The notes beneath the pieces are model-generated. The model ran no database searches and was not told where the DNA came from. It saw only the letters and a list, made by a program, of their open reading frames with translations. Below, in pieces: positions 26,946 through 35,169 of a stretch of 35,336 bases of DNA (positions within the stretch are counted from its first letter, which is position 1; each line of letters begins with the position of its first letter). Origin of the DNA: Chloroflexota bacterium (lineage in GTDB: Bacteria > Chloroflexota > Anaerolineae > B4-G1 > SLSP01). Position numbers and translations under genes: made by a program. The stretch is taken from the NCBI GenBank assembly GCA_019873725.1, contig JAIOAS010000013.1, positions 1 through 35,336 of the forward strand. Reading direction: 5' to 3'.

Positions 26946-27461
26946 ATGACAGGCTCAAGCTTTCCCGTCAACCGTGAGTTTTTCGTCACCTTTTTGATCG
27001 CTGCGAAACAACATACTTATGCCGCGCAGGGCGGTGCAGATGCGGTGGTAGCGTCATTGCTGCCCGGCTCGCGTCAACTGGAATACCACGCCGGGCAACT
27101 CTCGTATCGCGATGTCTACTTCGGCAACGAGTATTTTGCCGGACAAGAGGTCGTCTACTATGACGCAGCGCCCGTTTGGTCGATGGTGTATGCCGGCGGC
27201 GAACTGAAAAATATACCGCGCAGCATTCGTTCAGCGATGAAAACGAGCCAGTTGTACGCTTTCTTGCAGGCCGCGTTATTGCAGGCGCCGCTGGAACATC
27301 CTTATCGCGGTCCGGCCCTGTGGCAGGCAGCCGATTTCACCTACAACAACGAGATCCACGGAGACCTGGAACGCTTTTGGGGCATAGAAGCCATCAGCTA
27401 CCAGGATGTGGCGGTTTATCAGTTACATTATAGTGGGGGGGTGTTGCGGTATAGTGGGTGA
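26946..27461 (+). CDS. DUF5680 domain-containing protein
   Basis: This 171-residue cytoplasmic protein starts at ATG 26946 behind GAGAGGAGG (a TTG three bases upstream is less likely). It has FLIAAKQHTYA, then SRQLEYHAGQLSYRDVYFG, EYFAGQEVVYYDAAPVWSMVYAGG and YRGPALWQAADFTYNNEI. These fit the DUF5680 family, a small single-domain group of unknown function sometimes fused to HTH domains. It lies 73 bases after the URO-D-like gene and converges with the minus-strand nuclease-like gene that follows 41 bases later. Confidence 0.75.
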   Translation: MTGSSFPVNREFFVTFLIAAKQHTYAAQGGADAVVASLLPGSRQLEYHAGQLSYRDVYFGNEYFAGQEVVYYDAAPVWSMVYAGGELKNIPRSIRSAMKTSQLYAFLQAALLQAPLEHPYRGPALWQAADFTYNNEIHGDLERFWGIEAISYQDVAVYQLHYSGGVLRYSG

Positions 27462-27502
27462 TAAAGTGAGTTTCTATAGGGTGGGGGATTTCGAGGGTAG
27501 AG

Positions 27503-28108
27503 CTACCACGGTTTCTTATGCAGTTCTCGAAGGCGTGTTACACAGCGGTTGAGGCTGAGTGCGCTTTGCGCCGCCGCATCAATGTTCCAACATTGAAACA
27601 CGAACTCTTCGAGTGCAGCGTTATAGCCAGGCCCTACAGTTGCCGAGACATCAGGTTGCGGTAGAAGAGCGTGGCGCAGTGCTCTTCTTGGTGAACGACG
27701 TGCGAGATTGATCAACTCCTGTTTGGGGTTGTCCAGATTCTCAGGGCTTCTTGGGATAGAGTTCTCTGATATACCAAGAAAGTGCGCTATGCTTTGACGG
27801 TCAGCCAAAAGCCAGCTTTCTATTTCACGCACTACTGCACGTAACAGCAATTTAGGGCTCCGTTTGGGTAACCATACCGCCGGAACCTCCGGCGGACATT
27901 GCAATCCTGTATCCATAAAGTCTACCAGTACTAGAATCGGATTGCCGTACTGGGCAAGTACATTGAAGCCGGTTATTTTGTCACGCAAATATGTCCAGCC
28001 CCGTTTGCCATACGCTGTGCCGAATTGATGCTGGCAATGGTTAATTAAAATTAACCGTGCGGCGACAGCTTCGTCCAGGTTTCCCTCGATTAGTGCATCT
28101 ACAATCAT
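27503..28108 (-). CDS. TOPRIM/DUF4276-like putative nuclease partner of an ATPase
   Basis: This 201-residue minus-strand protein begins MIVDALIEGNLDEAVAARLI, where E8 after a strand is the expected first TOPRIM acid, and has ILVLVDFMD with D63 and D66 as the second acidic pair. Small alpha/beta proteins of this kind (DUF4276-like) are commonly encoded after OLD-type ATPases. Its ATG (28106-28108) overlaps the stop of the ATPase (ATGA), so the two are translated together and probably form a complex. The pair resembles PARIS (ATPase AriA plus TOPRIM protein AriB) in logic, though the nuclease families are not the same. Target and trigger are unknown. Confidence 0.7.
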   Translation of the reverse strand: MIVDALIEGNLDEAVAARLILINHCQHQFGTAYGKRGWTYLRDKITGFNVLAQYGNPILVLVDFMDTGLQCPPEVPAVWLPKRSPKLLLRAVVREIESWLLADRQSIAHFLGISENSIPRSPENLDNPKQELINLARRSPRRALRHALLPQPDVSATVGPGYNAALEEFVFQCWNIDAAAQSALSLNRCVTRLRELHKKPW

Positions 28109-29241
28109 AGTTCGAATTCGAGGGCTAATTGACGAATGTTTTCCGGGGCTGTCCGCGGCATCAACACATCGGCTGCCGTTAGTCCACTTGCCATGGCTTG
28201 CCGGTCGGCTTCATCAGGTGGAAGCAGCAGAGTTCCATCAGGGCTGGGTTCCAGCCGCAACACTTCTTCAGGCCCAATCCCCTCATCTTGGAGTATTTCT
28301 TCTGAGTGTGTTGAGATGATGAGTTGGCGTGGTTCTTTGCGACTGCGGTTGATGCGATAGAATATGGTCGGCAGACGACGCACAACCTCCGGATGTAGTG
28401 ATAGTTCTGGCTCTTCTAGCATAAGCGGTCCAGATCCTTCATATATTGTCCACAGTAGACCAAATAAGCGCAGCGTACCATCGGAGAACTGGTTTTCGCT
28501 CTGTCTGGCATCGTGTGGACGCCAATGGGAGTAGCGTCCGATGAGATGTGGTACCCCAGAACTATCCAAGACAGCTTCTAACTCGGTCAATTGGGGTACT
28601 GCGCTCTGTAGCGCCCGGGTGATTTTCTTTAGACGCGCATCACGTGTTTTAGGTGTGGTCTTCCATAGGCGCAACAGAAAATCTCGACCGTAAGGGTCGT
28701 TTTGTACTGGCAACGGAGAGAATCCGCGTGGGTCACGCACCACTTGAGGCAACAGGTGTTGGTAAGAGATCGACTTGAAAAAATCGGCTACGATACGGAA
28801 TTGACGATTCTCGGATACTTGTTCCAGTGCTGTCTGGGTTAAGCGTAGTTGATCTTGTTTGTCCTCTTCGTTGGGACGCTGCAACAATCTCTCGGTTTGT
28901 TTGTAAACGATTTCTTCGCGCACTATTGGCCGTTGAACATTGTCTTGGTTCAGTGACAAGCGATAACGCCATTCATCATGTTCATTTTCAGCTAACGTGA
29001 CCTCGATGTCAATATTACTGTAGCGCGTTGCCGCCAAACAGCGGATAGCGGAAATACCTCCACGAGTATTTACGGCTTTTTCTAATCCGTCATTGGCTAT
29101 ATCGCGCAAAAAGCGTAAGACGTCAAGCAGATTGGATTTTCCTGAAGCATTTGGGCCTATCAAGAACATCCGTAACCCCAAATCTGCTTCAATGTCTTTG
29201 AAGTTTTTCCAATTTCTGAGTTTGATATGACTGAAGTGCAT
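28105..29241 (-). CDS. OLD/RecF-like AAA ATPase of a two-gene ATPase-nuclease system
   Basis: This 378-residue protein on the minus strand has an N-terminal FSHIKLRNWKNFKD (OLD/RecF-type start), Walker A GPNASGKS at 29-36, Walker B LMLEEPELSLHP (E276, E277), and an H-loop STHSEE (H312). This is the AAA_21/SMC-like ABC-type ATPase fold without a long coiled coil. ATG at 29241 with GGAGA just upstream is chosen; the extra 31 residues upstream cover the promoter and do not look conserved. It overlaps the TOPRIM-like gene by four bases. By analogy with OLD and PARIS systems it should sense a phage protein or DNA end and activate the partner, but that is inference. Confidence 0.82.
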   Translation of the reverse strand: MHFSHIKLRNWKNFKDIEADLGLRMFLIGPNASGKSNLLDVLRFLRDIANDGLEKAVNTRGGISAIRCLAATRYSNIDIEVTLAENEHDEWRYRLSLNQDNVQRPIVREEIVYKQTERLLQRPNEEDKQDQLRLTQTALEQVSENRQFRIVADFFKSISYQHLLPQVVRDPRGFSPLPVQNDPYGRDFLLRLWKTTPKTRDARLKKITRALQSAVPQLTELEAVLDSSGVPHLIGRYSHWRPHDARQSENQFSDGTLRLFGLLWTIYEGSGPLMLEEPELSLHPEVVRRLPTIFYRINRSRKEPRQLIISTHSEEILQDEGIGPEEVLRLEPSPDGTLLLPPDEADRQAMASGLTAADVLMPRTAPENIRQLALEFEL

Positions 29242-29312
29242 GTTGTCTCCTAATCCGCTTACAGACTTTCGAGGCGATTTGCCACCATACTCGTTACCCT
29301 GTTTTGACACTA

Positions 29313-29341
29313 ACGATAACTTATCTATTCTCAAATGTCAA
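29313..29341 (-). promoter_or_regulatory. Sigma-70-like promoter for the ATPase-nuclease pair
   Basis: Reading the minus strand, TTGACA (29341-29336) and TATCGT (29318-29313) are separated by exactly 17 bases. The -35 box is perfect and the -10 box has 4/6 matches. Transcription would start near 29306, about 65 bases before the chosen start codon. Confidence 0.65.
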
Positions 29342-29692
29342 GGGCATTTTTATGTTGCGTAAGGGCTTCATCATTATCTTGTCACAGTTCCGTTATTTCG
29401 CTTGAAGCAGATCGGCAAAGCCGCGTTTTGTAACCCATTTCAGCCCAAAACGGGCGACTGGCGTTCCTCTTGGAGCAAGAATGATAAGCCCCCTTATGTT
29501 GCATTGCAAAGCCTTGATTTGGCAGTAGAATTACAACTGATGGAATGTTGATCATATCTTTGAGGATGTAAGTTCATACAACCTGAGCTATGTTTTTTCG
29601 TATTAACGTAAGTTACAGTTTTGATGCTGGGGGACGTTTGACCCTGTCTGAGAGAGAACCATCAAAAGCTGTACAGCGTAACACTTATGAGC
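29342..29692. other. Intergenic region between divergent defence units
   Basis: About 350 bases without a convincing gene lie between the ATPase promoter and the vWA gene. They are more AT-rich than the flanks. I see no repeat or RNA structure here beyond a weak forward promoter candidate at 29504-29531. Confidence 0.5.
29504..29531 (+). promoter_or_regulatory. Weak promoter candidate for the vWA-PP2C operon
   Basis: TTGCAA (29504-29509) and TAGAAT (29526-29531) are spaced by 16 bases. The -10 box has 5/6 matches and the -35 box 4/6. The distance to the vWA start (about 175 bases) leaves a long leader, so other promoters are possible. Confidence 0.3.
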
Positions 29693-29707
29693 AAAGGAGG
29701 CTGAATG

Positions 29708-30514
29708 ATGAGTAAGAGACCCGGTGGTCAATTAGCGACCCGCCCGTTGCACTTTATCTGGATAGCGGATGCGTCAGGTTCGATGCGGGACGATGGGAAA
29801 ATCCAGGCCCTCAACATGGCGATTCGTGAGGCGATCCCCCATATGCAGAAGGTCGCTTCGGAAAATCCTAATGCGCAAGTTCTGGTGCGCGCCATCAAAT
29901 TCTCCAGCGGCGCGCAGTGGCACATTTCCCAGCCTACGCCGGTGGAGGATTTCAAGTGGGTGGATCTCAAAGCTGATGGCGTCACCGATATGGGCAAAGC
30001 CCTCTCGATGGTCGCCGACCAGCTCAAAATCCCCCCAATGACCGACCGTGCCCTGCCGCCGGTGCTGGTGCTGATCTCCGACGGCCAGCCGACCGACAGC
30101 TTCGAGAAGGGCTTGCAGAAGTTGATGGACGAGCCGTGGGGCAAGAAGGCTGTGCGCATCGCCATCGCCATCGGCAAGGACGCCGATCATGCCGTGCTGC
30201 AAAAGTTCATCGGTCATAATGAGATCAAGCCTTTGCAAGCCAATAACCCCGAGGCGCTGGTCAACTATATCAAGTGGGTGTCCACAGCGGTGCTGAAGTC
30301 GGCTTCGTCGCCGGCCAGCCAGGCTGCCGCGGCTACACCCGCGGGCGCGACCACGCCGCCGCCGATTCCCGTCGCTGCTCCATCCGCAACGCCTGGAGCT
30401 GCCGCCACGCCGGCAGCCCAACCGGTGACGGTGCCGGCAGCTTCGAATATCCCGATTCCTGCCGTACCCCCGCCCCTTGACGATTCGAATATCACCGCTG
30501 ACGACGTCTGGTAA
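29708..30514 (+). CDS. TerY-like von Willebrand A domain protein
   Basis: This 268-residue cytoplasmic vWA protein starts at ATG 29708 with AAAGGAGG ending 7 bases upstream (ATG 29705 is also possible). The MIDAS metal site is visible: DASGS at 21-25, the Thr of DGVTDMGKAL and LISDGQPTD. The vWA fold covers about residues 12-200 and is followed by an Ala/Pro-rich tail of about 65 residues. TerY-type vWA proteins are found with a PP2C phosphatase and a Ser/Thr kinase (the TerY-P triad), and the next gene here is indeed PP2C, 29 bases downstream. It may act as a scaffold or substrate for phospho-signalling in a stress or phage response. No tellurite-resistance genes are seen. Confidence 0.85.
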   Translation: MSKRPGGQLATRPLHFIWIADASGSMRDDGKIQALNMAIREAIPHMQKVASENPNAQVLVRAIKFSSGAQWHISQPTPVEDFKWVDLKADGVTDMGKALSMVADQLKIPPMTDRALPPVLVLISDGQPTDSFEKGLQKLMDEPWGKKAVRIAIAIGKDADHAVLQKFIGHNEIKPLQANNPEALVNYIKWVSTAVLKSASSPASQAAAATPAGATTPPPIPVAAPSATPGAAATPAAQPVTVPAASNIPIPAVPPPLDDSNITADDVW

Positions 30515-30543
30515 GCCGGCCCGATCAACCATAAGGAGCTACT

Positions 30544-31854
30544 ATGGGAAAAACACCGCAGTGGCCCGCCGGTGCCTGGCGCGTTGTCGGGCGGTCGGTT
30601 CAGGGAGCTTCGCATGCGCGTGGGGGCGTGCCCAACCAGGACGCGATCCAGTGGTTCCCTGAGTCCGGCGTAGGTCCGCCGCTGATCCTTTCTGTGTCCG
30701 ACGGGCATGGCAGCCCCCGCAACTTTCGCAGCGATGTGGGCGCGCAATTCGCCGTCGCAGAAGTGACGAATTTGATGCGCGAGTTGTTGTTGGCAGGACA
30801 GCCCGATCCGGCTAAGCTGTCGACGATCAAACGTACTGCGGAAGAACGTCTGCCGCGTGAGATCGTCCGACGCTGGCGCGCGGCTGTAGACCGGCATCTC
30901 GCGGACAACCCGATCACCGAAGCGGAGCTGGAGATGCTGGAGAAGCGGCGTGACCCCAAAGCACGGCGGGCCATCGAAAAGGACCCCCATATTGCCTACG
31001 GCGCAACGCTCTTGAGTGTGTTGATCACCTCCGGCTTTATCCTGTACCTGCAACTGGGCGATGGCGATATCCTGACCGTGGCGGACAACGGCGAGGTCAC
31101 GCGCCCGATGACCCGCGATCCCCGTCTTATGGCGAATGAAACGACGTCGTTGTGTATGGACGAAGCCTGGCGTGAGGTGCAAATCAAGTTCCAGGCGCTC
31201 TATGGCCCGCATCCGGCGTTGGTTTTGCTTTCCACCGACGGGTATGCCAATTCGTTCGTCAACGATGCTGCTTTCCTCAAGGTTGGTTCCGACATCCTGG
31301 ACATTCTGCGCACCGATGGCCTTGAGAGCGTGGAACAAAACCTCAGCGGTTGGTTGCAAGATGCCTCGGCAGCCGGGAGCGGCGACGACATCACGATGGG
31401 CATTGTGTTCCCGGAGGCTATTCTGTCTGTGCCCGCGCCTGCACCGGCCCCTGTCGTGCAGCCGCCGAAACCACGCCGTAGCCGTTCGCGGACGACGACA
31501 CCATCGAGGCCGGCTGTGGCGCCAAAGACCGCATCTCAACCACTCCCTGAGAAACCACAACCCTCCGCTTCATCCGCAGAAGCTGCGCCACCGCAGGAAC
31601 CCGTGTCTGCCGAAAAGGCGTCTCAGGATGCGGTCACGGACAAAGCACCGGCTCAAGATCGGCCCGCTGTGCCGTCTGTGGCGGCGACGCCTGCAGAACC
31701 TGTCGTGGAGAAGCCCGAATCTGTACTGACAGCATCAACGTCGGATGTCCGGCCTGCCGAGTCGCCGGCCAGGCCCAGGATTGAACTCATCAAGAATGAG
31801 GATCGCCCGCGCGAACCGAGTAAAAAGCTACCGGACATCTTTTACGATGACTGA
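30544..31854 (+). CDS. PP2C-family Ser/Thr protein phosphatase with disordered tail
   Basis: This 436-residue protein starts at ATG 30544 behind AAGGAG. The phosphatase domain (about 12-290) has NQDA (31-34), VSDGHGS (51-57), GATLL (153-157), GDGD (172-175), STDGYAN (230-236) and GDDITM (280-285). All the acidic metal-binding positions of PP2C are present, so it should be active. Residues 295-436 are a Pro/Ala/Ser-rich, presumably unstructured tail ending KKLPDIFYDD, possibly a docking peptide. It dephosphorylates Ser/Thr residues in the TerY-P context. The kinase that would oppose it is not in the window. Confidence 0.88.
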   Translation: MGKTPQWPAGAWRVVGRSVQGASHARGGVPNQDAIQWFPESGVGPPLILSVSDGHGSPRNFRSDVGAQFAVAEVTNLMRELLLAGQPDPAKLSTIKRTAEERLPREIVRRWRAAVDRHLADNPITEAELEMLEKRRDPKARRAIEKDPHIAYGATLLSVLITSGFILYLQLGDGDILTVADNGEVTRPMTRDPRLMANETTSLCMDEAWREVQIKFQALYGPHPALVLLSTDGYANSFVNDAAFLKVGSDILDILRTDGLESVEQNLSGWLQDASAAGSGDDITMGIVFPEAILSVPAPAPAPVVQPPKPRRSRSRTTTPSRPAVAPKTASQPLPEKPQPSASSAEAAPPQEPVSAEKASQDAVTDKAPAQDRPAVPSVAATPAEPVVEKPESVLTASTSDVRPAESPARPRIELIKNEDRPREPSKKLPDIFYDD

Positions 31855-31950
31855 GGGGCCTGGTGCCCCTACCGTGCGTTGCCTGCTGGGTTGCGTGCTG
31901 TACATTGCGTGAACGTCGCTCACGTAGGATGCAGCACGCAACCTGTTTTA
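31854..31950 (+). terminator. Two hairpins after the PP2C gene
   Basis: A small hairpin AGGGGC-ctggt-GCCCCT (31854-31870) is followed by a large one. GGTTGCGTGCTG (31889-31900) pairs perfectly with CAGCACGCAACC (31932-31943) around an inner CGTGA/TCACG stem, and TGTTTTA follows. The large hairpin is a good terminator candidate, although its length and nested arms also resemble a dispersed palindromic element. Confidence 0.6.
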
Positions 31951-31985
31951 TGCGAATCGCGCACTATAATGAATATTTTCATCAT

Positions 31986-32049
31986 CAGATGAAGCAGATG
32001 GAGCAGATTACACTGCCGATAGAACACAAATCTGCTAAATCTGCTGACA
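31986..32049 (+). repeat. GCAGAT/ATCTGC inverted repeat cluster before the LRR gene
   Basis: AGCAGAT occurs at 31993-31999 and AGCAGATT at 32002-32009; the complements AATCTGCT occur at 32029-32036 and 32038-32045. The two halves can fold into alternative hairpins about 25-75 bases before the GTG start at 32069. Confidence 0.6.
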
Positions 32050-32068
32050 GGTTTGTGGCATAACGGTT

Positions 32069-33565
32069 GTGAATAACGAAGCCCGGCTCAAACTCCGCGA
32101 AATTGTGGATACTTATGGTCACAGCGTCGTGAATGATTCACGACGCTGTAAGGCGCTGCTTCTCGACTTGTGCGGGCAATATCGCCGCGAAATCTTCGTG
32201 CTCAACGCGGCGCAGGAAGAGCACGTGGCCAACGATTTGCAGGACATCAAAGGCGGCATACCCCTGCCGGTGCTGGTCGCGCAGCTTACCCGGCGGCTGG
32301 TGGACAATCGCGCGCTCGCCGAGGATGCTGCGCGTTGGGCCGTGGAAGCGTGGGCCTACGCGCTGCGCCTGACCGATGCAGAACCTGCGCCGGTCGGCGA
32401 ATCCACACCAGAGTCAGTGACCCCGCCGCCACTGCCTGTGACGCCTCCCCCGTTGCCCACCACACAGACCCAGCCGATTGTGGATCAAATCTCCCGCCCG
32501 GCGCCTCGTCCGGCGGATGCTGCGCCACCCAAGCCGGCGCAACAAACATTTGCTTCCACCCGCACCATCGAAGTGTATGGCCGTTCGCGCCGCGGGCCCA
32601 ATGCGAAATGGCAGAAGCTCGGTTCCACACCCGGCAGCGTGGCCCTGCCGCCCAATTACGTACTGGGATTGCGTTTCTTTCACTATAAGCTGGACGAACT
32701 GGGCACCTGGATCAAGGAAATTCTCCATCCCGATGATGTGGTCTCGTTGGACCTGAACGGCCCTATCGACGATGCGGGTATGGCTGCCCTGCGCGCTTTC
32801 CCCAACCTGACCTATCTTGAAGTGGACACCGCCGAGCGCGTGACCAATGCCGGGCTGGCGTTTTTGGTGAGCCTATCCAAACTGACCACGCTCCATTTCC
32901 CGTGGGCCACCGGGATCACCGATGAGGGGCTGGCCTACCTGCGTGCCTTGCCGGAACTGGCCGGGCTCTTACTGCACTGGGCGGGCGTCTCTGATGCGGC
33001 GTTGCGCTACCTCGAATCGCTGAATAAACTCGAAGTGCTGGAGCTGCGCGAGTGCAAGCACATCACCGGTTCCGGCCTGTTGCATCTGCGAGCTTCACCC
33101 AACCTTGTCACGCTCGATGTGGCCGGCGCATCCAGGTTCAACGACACGGGGGTGCAAGCCATCGGCCTGTGCACCGGTTTGAGTAAAGTCGATCTCTCGC
33201 GCTGTCCGCAAATCACGCGGCAAGGCCTCGTTTACCTGCGCAACCTGCTCAATCTGACCTACCTCGATCTTTCCGGTAATCCGCTGGTCGATGACAAAGG
33301 CATCGCGCCCCTGTGCGATTTGCCGCGCCTCTCCACGCTCAACCTTGCCCGCACGGCCATCACCGACATCGGCCTCAGCCACATCGGCGACATGCCTGCT
33401 CTGCTCTATCTTGATCTCTCGAACTGCGAGCGCATCACCGACCGGGGGCTGTCACACCTGCGCCGTCTCAAGAAGCTGGCTTACCTCAATGTCAGCGGAT
33501 GCAAACGCCTCACCCAGAATGGGATTAGCAGGCTTGTTCGGTCAGGATTGTTTATTATGCAGTGA
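32069..33565 (+). CDS. Leucine-rich repeat protein with an N-terminal adaptor-like domain
   Basis: This 498-residue protein has three parts. Residues 1-103 form a helical domain, LKLREIVDTYGHSVV, then RRCKALLLDLCGQYRREI and WAVEAWAYALRL. A Pro-rich linker (about 108-165) follows. From about 215 to the end come some eleven leucine-rich repeats of 24-26 residues of the LRR_CC/AMN1 type (ITDRGLSHLRRLKKLAYLNVSGC). The N-terminal domain recurs in the truncated gene at 35196 and resembles the adaptor or effector-associated domains that pair signalling proteins in conflict systems. LRRs usually recognise partners. The start is GTG 32069 without a clear Shine-Dalgarno, so it may be set by an unusual leader. 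Confidence 0.82.
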   Translation: MNNEARLKLREIVDTYGHSVVNDSRRCKALLLDLCGQYRREIFVLNAAQEEHVANDLQDIKGGIPLPVLVAQLTRRLVDNRALAEDAARWAVEAWAYALRLTDAEPAPVGESTPESVTPPPLPVTPPPLPTTQTQPIVDQISRPAPRPADAAPPKPAQQTFASTRTIEVYGRSRRGPNAKWQKLGSTPGSVALPPNYVLGLRFFHYKLDELGTWIKEILHPDDVVSLDLNGPIDDAGMAALRAFPNLTYLEVDTAERVTNAGLAFLVSLSKLTTLHFPWATGITDEGLAYLRALPELAGLLLHWAGVSDAALRYLESLNKLEVLELRECKHITGSGLLHLRASPNLVTLDVAGASRFNDTGVQAIGLCTGLSKVDLSRCPQITRQGLVYLRNLLNLTYLDLSGNPLVDDKGIAPLCDLPRLSTLNLARTAITDIGLSHIGDMPALLYLDLSNCERITDRGLSHLRRLKKLAYLNVSGCKRLTQNGISRLVRSGLFIMQ

Positions 33566-33613
33566 AAGCGTAATGAGCTTTCAAACCAAAAATTACAGGC
33601 TAAGGTGGATTAT

Positions 33614-34600
33614 ATGAGTTTGCCTATCTTTACTTCACCCAAAAAGATTCAGGATCACTTTGATCCCACAGCCGATATTGTGCTTTATCATGGCGATGTC
33701 AATGATTTTGTTACCACGGTTCCTGATAAATCAGTTGCTTTGATCATTACTTCCCCACCTTATAACTTGGGCAAAGAATATGAAAATCGCGTTTCCATTG
33801 AAGAATATCTGGGTATGCAAACACAAGTTATTGCTGAGTTATATCGAGTGCTGAGCGACAAAGGCAGTATCTGCTGGCAAGTGGGTAATTTTGTCGACGA
33901 AGGCGAAGTCTATCCATTGGATATTCTTTATTACGGCATTTTCAAGAAGCTTGGCCTGCGTTTGCGGAATCGCATCATTTGGCACTTTGATCACGGATTA
34001 CACGCATCCAAACGTTTTTCCGGTCGGTATGAAACGCTGTTGTGGTTTACCAAAACCGATGATTACCTCTTCAATCTGGATGCGGTTCGTGTGCCTTCCA
34101 AATATCCGGGCAAACGACACTATAAGGGTCCCAAAAAGGGCGAGCTATCTGGCAACCCATTGGGCAAAAACCCTTCCGACGTTTGGGAGTTTCTTGTCCA
34201 GGAGTGGGAAAGCGCTTTTTGGGATATTCCTAATGTGAAATCGAACCACCCAGAAAAGACGATTCATCCCTGTCAATATCCTATTGCTTTGATTGAGAGA
34301 TGTGTTCTGGCATTGACTGGTGAGGGAGATTGGGTGTTTGATCCTTATGCGGGCGTTGGGACATCCCTGGTTGCTGGAATCATGCATAATCGCCGTGTTA
34401 TGGGAAGTGAACAAGAGGAGAAATACGTAGACATTGCTCGTGAGCGTCTGCTTGCATACTTCAACGGTGTATTACCTTATCGCCCATTGACCAAGCCTGT
34501 CTACCGACCGACGGGCAGGGAGAAAGTTGCTCAGGTGCCAGAAGAGTGGCAAAGTTCTGCTCAACAACGATTGCTAGAAAAGCAGGAACAATATTCATGA
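33614..34600 (+). CDS. Beta-class DNA methyltransferase of a BglII-like R-M system
   Basis: This 328-residue modification enzyme has the catalytic TSPPYN motif (46-51) and the AdoMet-binding FDPYAGVGTS motif (about 242-251) near the end, the motif order of the beta class. IVLYHGDVNDF and WQVGNFVDEGEVYPLDILYYG lie in the usual places. TSPPY suits N4-cytosine modification, the type used by M.BglII, as I recall. ATG 33614 behind AAGGTGG is preferred to GTG 33605. It ends in an ATGA overlap with the endonuclease gene. The gene is AT-rich compared with the LRR gene before it. Confidence 0.9.
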   Translation: MSLPIFTSPKKIQDHFDPTADIVLYHGDVNDFVTTVPDKSVALIITSPPYNLGKEYENRVSIEEYLGMQTQVIAELYRVLSDKGSICWQVGNFVDEGEVYPLDILYYGIFKKLGLRLRNRIIWHFDHGLHASKRFSGRYETLLWFTKTDDYLFNLDAVRVPSKYPGKRHYKGPKKGELSGNPLGKNPSDVWEFLVQEWESAFWDIPNVKSNHPEKTIHPCQYPIALIERCVLALTGEGDWVFDPYAGVGTSLVAGIMHNRRVMGSEQEEKYVDIARERLLAYFNGVLPYRPLTKPVYRPTGREKVAQVPEEWQSSAQQRLLEKQEQYS

Positions 34601-35169
34601 AAATAGTAGGCGAATACTCATTTAACGGCGGTAGTACAGTCATTGGCACACAATTCCCGGCAGAGCTGGCTGAAGTGAAGCAGTTGATTGCCTCAATTGA
34701 CAGTGAACAATGCAAAACCAAGATCAGTCGGGAAAAAACCATGCCGGGCAAAAAGCTATACAGCCCAAGAGCACTTAACAAGGCTTTTAAGACGGCATTC
34801 GCGGGAAAAAATTGGGTGACATATAGGATTCCGTGTACATATCCTACGGCGTATTATTCCTCCGATTATCAACCCGATGCTTCAGTATCAGGAGCTTTCC
34901 GCGAGATAGATTTTGTCAAGAATCGCGTAGGTGTAGAAGTGCAGTTTGGAAAATATGCCTTTATGGTTTACAACGTTTGTGCCAAAATGACTATCTTTCA
35001 TAACTCTGATGTGATTGACGTTGGTATTGAGATTGTCCCCATCAAAGCTTTTGCGGATGAAATGTCTACCGGTGTGTCCTATTTCGAGCAGATCGTATGG
35101 GATTTGGAGAAACGTGGTGTCGCAGATATCGACATTCCTGTATTGATCCTGGGTATCAGTCATACATAA
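34597..35169 (+). CDS. BglII-family type II restriction endonuclease
   Basis: This 190-residue protein contains FREIDFVKNRVGVEVQFGKY. The spacing of D105, E114 and Q116 equals the Asp84, Glu93 and Gln95 active site of BglII, with the unusual Gln in place of the Lys of the PD-(D/E)xK motif. VGVEVQFGKYAFMVYNVCAKM and IVPIKAFADEMSTGVSYFEQ also fit the family. BglII cuts A^GATCT, so that or a related site is expected, but recognition residues cannot be read off here. ATG 34597 overlaps the methyltransferase stop; an upstream in-frame ATG (34546) is inside the methyltransferase and rejected. Catalytic residues are intact. Confidence 0.88.
   Translation: MKIVGEYSFNGGSTVIGTQFPAELAEVKQLIASIDSEQCKTKISREKTMPGKKLYSPRALNKAFKTAFAGKNWVTYRIPCTYPTAYYSSDYQPDASVSGAFREIDFVKNRVGVEVQFGKYAFMVYNVCAKMTIFHNSDVIDVGIEIVPIKAFADEMSTGVSYFEQIVWDLEKRGVADIDIPVLILGISHT

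Follow-up and report, generated by a model that had tools for sequence, protein, structure and literature searches.

In OLD enzymes (Class 1 and Class 2/GajA), an OLD-type ATPase and a TOPRIM-helical nuclease are carried by one polypeptide. In the B. pseudomallei protein, residues E400, E404, D455, D457, T506 and E508 hold two metals and K562 is directed to the scissile phosphate; the invariant glycine of TOPRIM domains follows strand 2, and the position of E404 is occupied by an aspartate (D31) in RNase M5 (PMC6755086). In Gabija, a helicase, GajB, stands beside GajA. PARIS follows a two-gene logic, ABC ATPase plus TOPRIM protein (AriA/AriB), and AriB cuts tRNA-Lys once released from the AriA hexamer (PMC12409363). 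Septu (PtuAB) and the effectors of retrons Ec78 and Eco7 associate the ATPase PtuA with an HNH partner; during infection, tRNA-Tyr is cleaved by both Septu and retron-Eco7 (PMC13096335). The AbiL/RloB system (AbiLi and RloB) combines an AAA_21 ATPase with a small TOPRIM-like protein. PADLOC lists a further defence candidate, HEC-01, in which an ATPase gene adjoins the small HEC-01B gene. HEC stands for Hma-embedded candidate, and a 2026 paper attributes antiviral activity to several HECs; its passages on this point name HEC-06 but not HEC-01.

The window, a stretch of 35,336 nucleotides of Chloroflexota DNA, carries two minus-strand genes, A and B, whose products match the HEC-01 models full-length: A matches HEC-01A (PDLC04180) with an E-value of 2e-144 over residues 1-374 of 378, and B matches HEC-01B (PDLC04194) with an E-value of 3.6e-56 over residues 3-199 of 201. 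By these profile matches, the pair is a member of the HEC-01 candidate already catalogued in PADLOC, although it lies alone between DUF5680 and VWA genes and not within an Hma locus. The first-pass annotation had described it as a poorly characterised variant of PARIS/OLD defence. This holds insofar as no experimental work on DUF4276 or HEC-01 was found in the open literature searched, where HEC-01 was met only as genome annotation; the variant itself was already listed.

Gene arrangement and the OLD-type ATPase

Gene A (28105-29241, minus strand) encodes 378 residues and gene B (27503-28108, minus strand) 201. The four-base overlap claimed for them is indeed there: the stop codon of A and the start codon of B share ATGA at 28105-28108 (minus strand), an arrangement that suggests translational coupling. 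An overlap recurs in homologous loci, of four bases in L002 and L004 and of one base in L006, L008 and L011. A is best read from the ATG at 29241, since AGGAG stands five bases before it (29247-29251, minus strand) and the homologues begin at this ATG. The longer listed frame, with a TTG start at 29334, is unlikely, the more so because the promoter-like site upstream of A would start transcription below this codon. This site, TTGACA-17-TATCGT at 29341-29313 (minus strand), matches the consensus at 10 of 12 positions and explains why the feature was originally drawn out to 29341. The -35 box and 17-base spacing are as annotated; the -10 box is weak, eight such sites occur in 3 kb as compared to 3.1 +/- 1.5 in shuffles, and a site of equal score is present on the opposite strand. 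The match is thus not exceptional for the stretch, and the site is a plausible candidate promoter only.

The product of A is an OLD/RecF-type ABC ATPase. The Walker A, Walker B and H-loop with which it had been credited were all located within conserved blocks: GPNASGKS at residues 29-36, LMLEEPE at 273-279 and H312, together with an ABC-signature-like SDGT at 253-256. Pfam AAA_21 matches with an E-value of 5.9e-34 (118.9 bits) and AAA_15 with 75.2 bits. The AlphaFold2 (AF2) model of A has a pLDDT of 80.6, less confident than that of B (94.6), with residues 163-185 and 369-378 below 50. Among PDB structures it comes closest to PtuA, of Septu and retrons Ec78 and Eco7, and then to Rad50/SMC proteins. 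Retron elements were not noted at the locus, and the partner is TOPRIM-like here in place of HNH.

Fold and family of the small partner

Structure prediction yields for B a model of high confidence (pLDDT 94.6, pTM 0.90) with the strand and helix order of a TOPRIM fold. Strands and helices (E2-7, H10-20, E28-34, H38-54, E58-63, E87-92) form a four-stranded core in TOPRIM order, with the glutamate after strand 1, the glycine after strand 2 and the acids after strand 3, and are followed by a helical second half. The top PDB matches, among them 6NJX and 6NK8, come from the C-terminal regions of two OLD proteins, one from Xanthomonas (probability 0.94) and one from Burkholderia (0.99), but with weak E-values (1.8e-3 and 3.9e-3) and TM-scores of 0.33-0.46. 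Searches of PDB sequences returned no match with the B profile and only chance-level matches with the DUF4276 profile, and hhalign placed B against the OLD TOPRIM domain at 27.6% only. The model suggests a TOPRIM-plus-helical domain whose fold is predicted with confidence, its matches among solved structures being weak.

The acids E8, D63 and D66, pointed out in the first-pass annotation, are invariant in 13 of 13 aligned homologues of B, as are D12, G37, R94, E95, E97, W99, D103 and K129. The order of these residues and most of their spacings agree with those of the B. pseudomallei OLD protein. E8 and D12 are four residues apart, like E400 and E404; G37 follows strand 2; D63 and D66 follow strand 3 and would be the counterparts of D455 and D457. 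At the start of the helical part, E95-x-E97 resembles T506-x-E508, and K129 then follows as the putative counterpart of K562, these last equivalences being drawn by motif and order alone. The second acid motif is DxxD in B and DxD in OLD proteins; the canonical DxD is found only in the distant homologues L012, L013 and L024, and in the last of these, borne by a prophage, the D12 position appears by eye to be a serine. The invariant residues of B thus seem to correspond to the two-metal site described for OLD nucleases. From the fold, the OLD matches and these residues, the pair resembles an OLD enzyme divided between two genes, with two ORFs in the window and in its relatives in place of one polypeptide. 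GajB, which accompanies GajA in Gabija, does not adjoin the pair, the neighbours being DUF5680 and VWA genes.

The assignment of B to the surroundings of DUF4276 is borne out at the profile level, though Pfam DUF4276 (PF14103) scores 20.0 bits on B, below its gathering score of 30.2. A profile of B aligns to a profile of 18 Chloroflexota DUF4276 proteins with 99.1% probability (hhalign, E-value 5e-19, 183 columns), and this comparison supports B as a divergent relative of DUF4276. In a PADLOC scan of the same 18 proteins, the families matched are nearly all HEC-01B models, with one HEC-01A model. Counts of DUF4276–ATPase pairs, suggested earlier as a check, show that at least 23 of the 25 loci compared in Chloroflexota have the DUF4276 gene directly preceded by a P-loop ATPase gene; an ATPase–TOPRIM fusion was not noticed among the 25. 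In one DUF4276 locus, L091, B contains a stop and the ATPase is reduced to short frames, an apparent decay.

As for the pairing logic of PARIS and OLD invoked at the outset, the OLD-type ATPase, the TOPRIM partner and the conserved pair stand; membership in PARIS does not. The PARIS rule asks for AAA_15 at 32 bits or more, or AAA_21 at 27 bits or more, together with DUF4435 at 27 bits or more (PMC9122126). A passes both ATPase thresholds, whereas DUF4435 gave no match to B at E ≤ 1 in the Pfam search and was not found in the window's own genome at E ≤ 0.001; without DUF4435 in B, PARIS was rejected. A also matches HEC-01A far better than AriA (479 versus 117 bits), and B is about 200 residues long as compared to about 290 in the DUF4435 proteins found here. 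A likeness to AbiL/RloB is seen in the AAA_21 ATPase with its small TOPRIM-like partner and in the viral structure library, where the most probable match of B is a phage RloB-like protein (probability 0.89). RloB gave no Pfam match to B at E ≤ 1, and hhalign against a shallow RloB alignment was negative; the hhalign comparisons of B with AriB-type and RloB relatives, negative alike, used two to three sequences each and are without power.

The two genes evolve at different rates. In 55 of 55 pairs of homologues, similarity is higher for A than for B, with means of 57% and 45%; between Duganella and Rugamonas, the values are 92% and 62%. For the eight pairs in which it was calculated, dN is 1.4- to 4.8-fold higher in B than in A; dN alone is usable, as synonymous sites are saturated. 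B may be under changing selection, or merely under weaker constraint.

Distribution and genomic setting

Fifteen related loci from Chloroflexota, Acidobacteria, Bacteroidetes and Proteobacteria have the pair in common, as does one viral contig. It is rare in the genomes sampled. Besides the window's own genome, strong matches to B (E < 1e-19) occur in 3 of 400 Chloroflexota genomes, none of them in the window's class, while within its genus there is one further carrier, G749, which shares the contig of L002. Searches with A recovered 2 of 295 genomes in the Duganella family sample (E ≤ 1e-40) and 2 of 61 in the Rugamonas genus sample (E ≤ 1e-30), the query's own genome included in both counts. 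DUF4276 at large is more widespread, with a match in 21 of 121 sampled Chloroflexota genomes.

Two members of the window's genus, G750 and G748, lack the pair but share the order of the UroD, DUF5680, VWA, PP2C and leucine-rich-repeat (LRR) genes, DUF5680 being a remnant in G748. In the window and in G749 the pair adjoins DUF5680, and in the genome of L002 a second contig has the VWA and PP2C genes beside the other end of A. Alignment to the empty site of G750, where about 50 unrelated bases are found, delimits an insert of about 2.1 kb at 27451-29575; flanking repeats are not clear at its ends. A second empty site is seen in Oxalobacteraceae, where a homologous pair lies between aspS and nudB in three genomes (gap of 1.88-1.98 kb), as compared to 29 other relatives examined, without the pair, in which the two genes are 49-440 bases apart. 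Since empty sites exist both in the same genus and at aspS–nudB, and since the pair is rare in sampled genomes, it is accessory, horizontally moving DNA. The prophage-borne homologue L024, the only relative found among viral contigs, adjoins a CI repressor and a CP76/CII-like regulator; Rousset et al. named, as a candidate hotspot, a cI gene of Vibrionales that has DUF2290 or DUF4435 genes next to it (PMC9122126). The phage and plasmid collections searched with B returned no match. In L039 (6305-7270), a homologue of A is intact, the B frame is short, and a gene associated with transposases lies directly downstream. L041 (9432-10610) holds an A-like ATPase (33% identity), directly after which no B-like gene was noticed.

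Most relatives stand alone among housekeeping genes: aspS/nudB, topA-like, carB-like, exopolysaccharide, cysteine-synthase-like and others, as named by reading of the sequences. In the window, the VWA, PP2C phosphatase and LRR genes lie in a row at 29705-33565 and are kept in the genus. A type II restriction-modification pair (methyltransferase and BglII-like nuclease, 33605-35169, at the contig end) is located 4.3 kb from A and B; it is independent of them because the same genes adjoin the empty site of G748.

Enrichment in defence islands, whose lack was named at the outset as speaking against the first-pass reading, was not found for this clade, which counts in part against that reading, within the small sample compared: a PADLOC scan, on greedy ORF calls, of 117 neighbouring proteins from 17 loci and, as controls, of 106 proteins from 12 stretches of these genomes. 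Among the top 25 families of each scan, type I/II methyltransferases are matched in about three neighbouring proteins and a restriction enzyme in one (the window's own), as compared to one methyltransferase and one MADS-type ATPase among the controls, so that no clear excess is seen. The lack of enrichment is not decisive, since for Class 1 OLD genes, too, positions outside defence islands are reported (PMC10568477). The window's own genome harbors a second, divergent pair in a defence-island-like setting (G000:C2, about 30.9-39.9 kb; L026:2875-11868), where an SLFN AlbA_2 domain is fused to a HEC-01A-type ATPase. Its partner, encoded after the fusion, is a small protein that DUF4276 matches weakly (hit at C2:34683-35153), and the pair adjoins a BrxHI/HmaA/DrmD-like helicase and a Ppl-like protein.

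Proposed function

The pair is probably an accessory anti-phage module of the abortive-infection type, split OLD- or PARIS-like, in which A gates B, a phage-triggered nuclease. A and B would be made together from one coupled message and would form a complex, A acting as an oligomerising OLD-type ABC ATPase, both sensor and scaffold, and B as a TOPRIM nuclease of the two-metal-ion kind on a chain of its own, the counterpart of the OLD C-terminal region. In the uninfected cell, B would be kept inactive by A. A phage trigger would change the ATP-dependent state of A, upon which B would cut nucleic acid, DNA or a tRNA, and phage growth would stop. The tRNA-cutting Septu/retron-Eco7 and PARIS systems serve as models for this mechanism.

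The nature of the target bears on the main alternative, an OLD- or Gabija-like standing AB complex that would attack phage DNA itself, in place of A holding back B and releasing it to arrest the cell; ATP would be an inhibitor or a processivity factor. The closest solved matches of B are OLD DNA nucleases, and OLD C-terminal regions on their own nick and degrade DNA (PMC6755086). However, the best matches of A are to PtuA of Septu and retrons, where another subunit carries the nuclease and tRNA is a reported target, and AriB, a TOPRIM protein paired with an OLD-type ATPase, cuts tRNA; direct cleavage of phage DNA is conceivable but rather unlikely. It is with about the same reserve that this clade of HEC-01 can be proposed to act abortively by cleaving tRNA, through a TOPRIM nuclease family, DUF4276, that differs from AriB.

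Readings without defence fare less well. Two coupled genes forming a compact, solitary insertion in housekeeping sites would suit a selfish toxin–antitoxin or addiction module, in which a toxic B is restrained by A and the segment is maintained while the cell is not defended, and Pfam names AAA_21 for AbiEii-type toxins. The plasmid collection searched with B held no homologue, though, and A, large, with a complete ATPase core and the more conserved partner in all 55 comparisons, is unlike usual antitoxins, which leaves such a module improbable. Least probable is a housekeeping role in DNA repair or the cell cycle, as proposed for the archaeal OLD-type ATPase Cran1, which is reported to play no part in defence (PMC12796447): homologues do lie mostly among housekeeping genes, but at each of two independent sites nearly all close relatives lack the pair, and its rarity in sampled genomes argues against a core function.

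With the anti-phage module as the preferred reading, A and B belong to a catalogued but uncharacterised candidate system, HEC-01, and are seen here on a mobile insert of 2.1 kb that is missing from close relatives. The empty sites delimit this module with its native boundaries, so that it is clonable as a unit, and the residue-by-residue parallel of B with the OLD two-metal nucleases provides a concrete catalytic hypothesis. DUF4276–ATPase pairs are common, judging by the share of Chloroflexota genomes with a DUF4276 match, yet no mention of DUF4276 was found in the open literature searched. Should the DUF4276 partners indeed cleave tRNA, OLD-type ATPase sensors would have recruited tRNA-cutting TOPRIM partners more than once.
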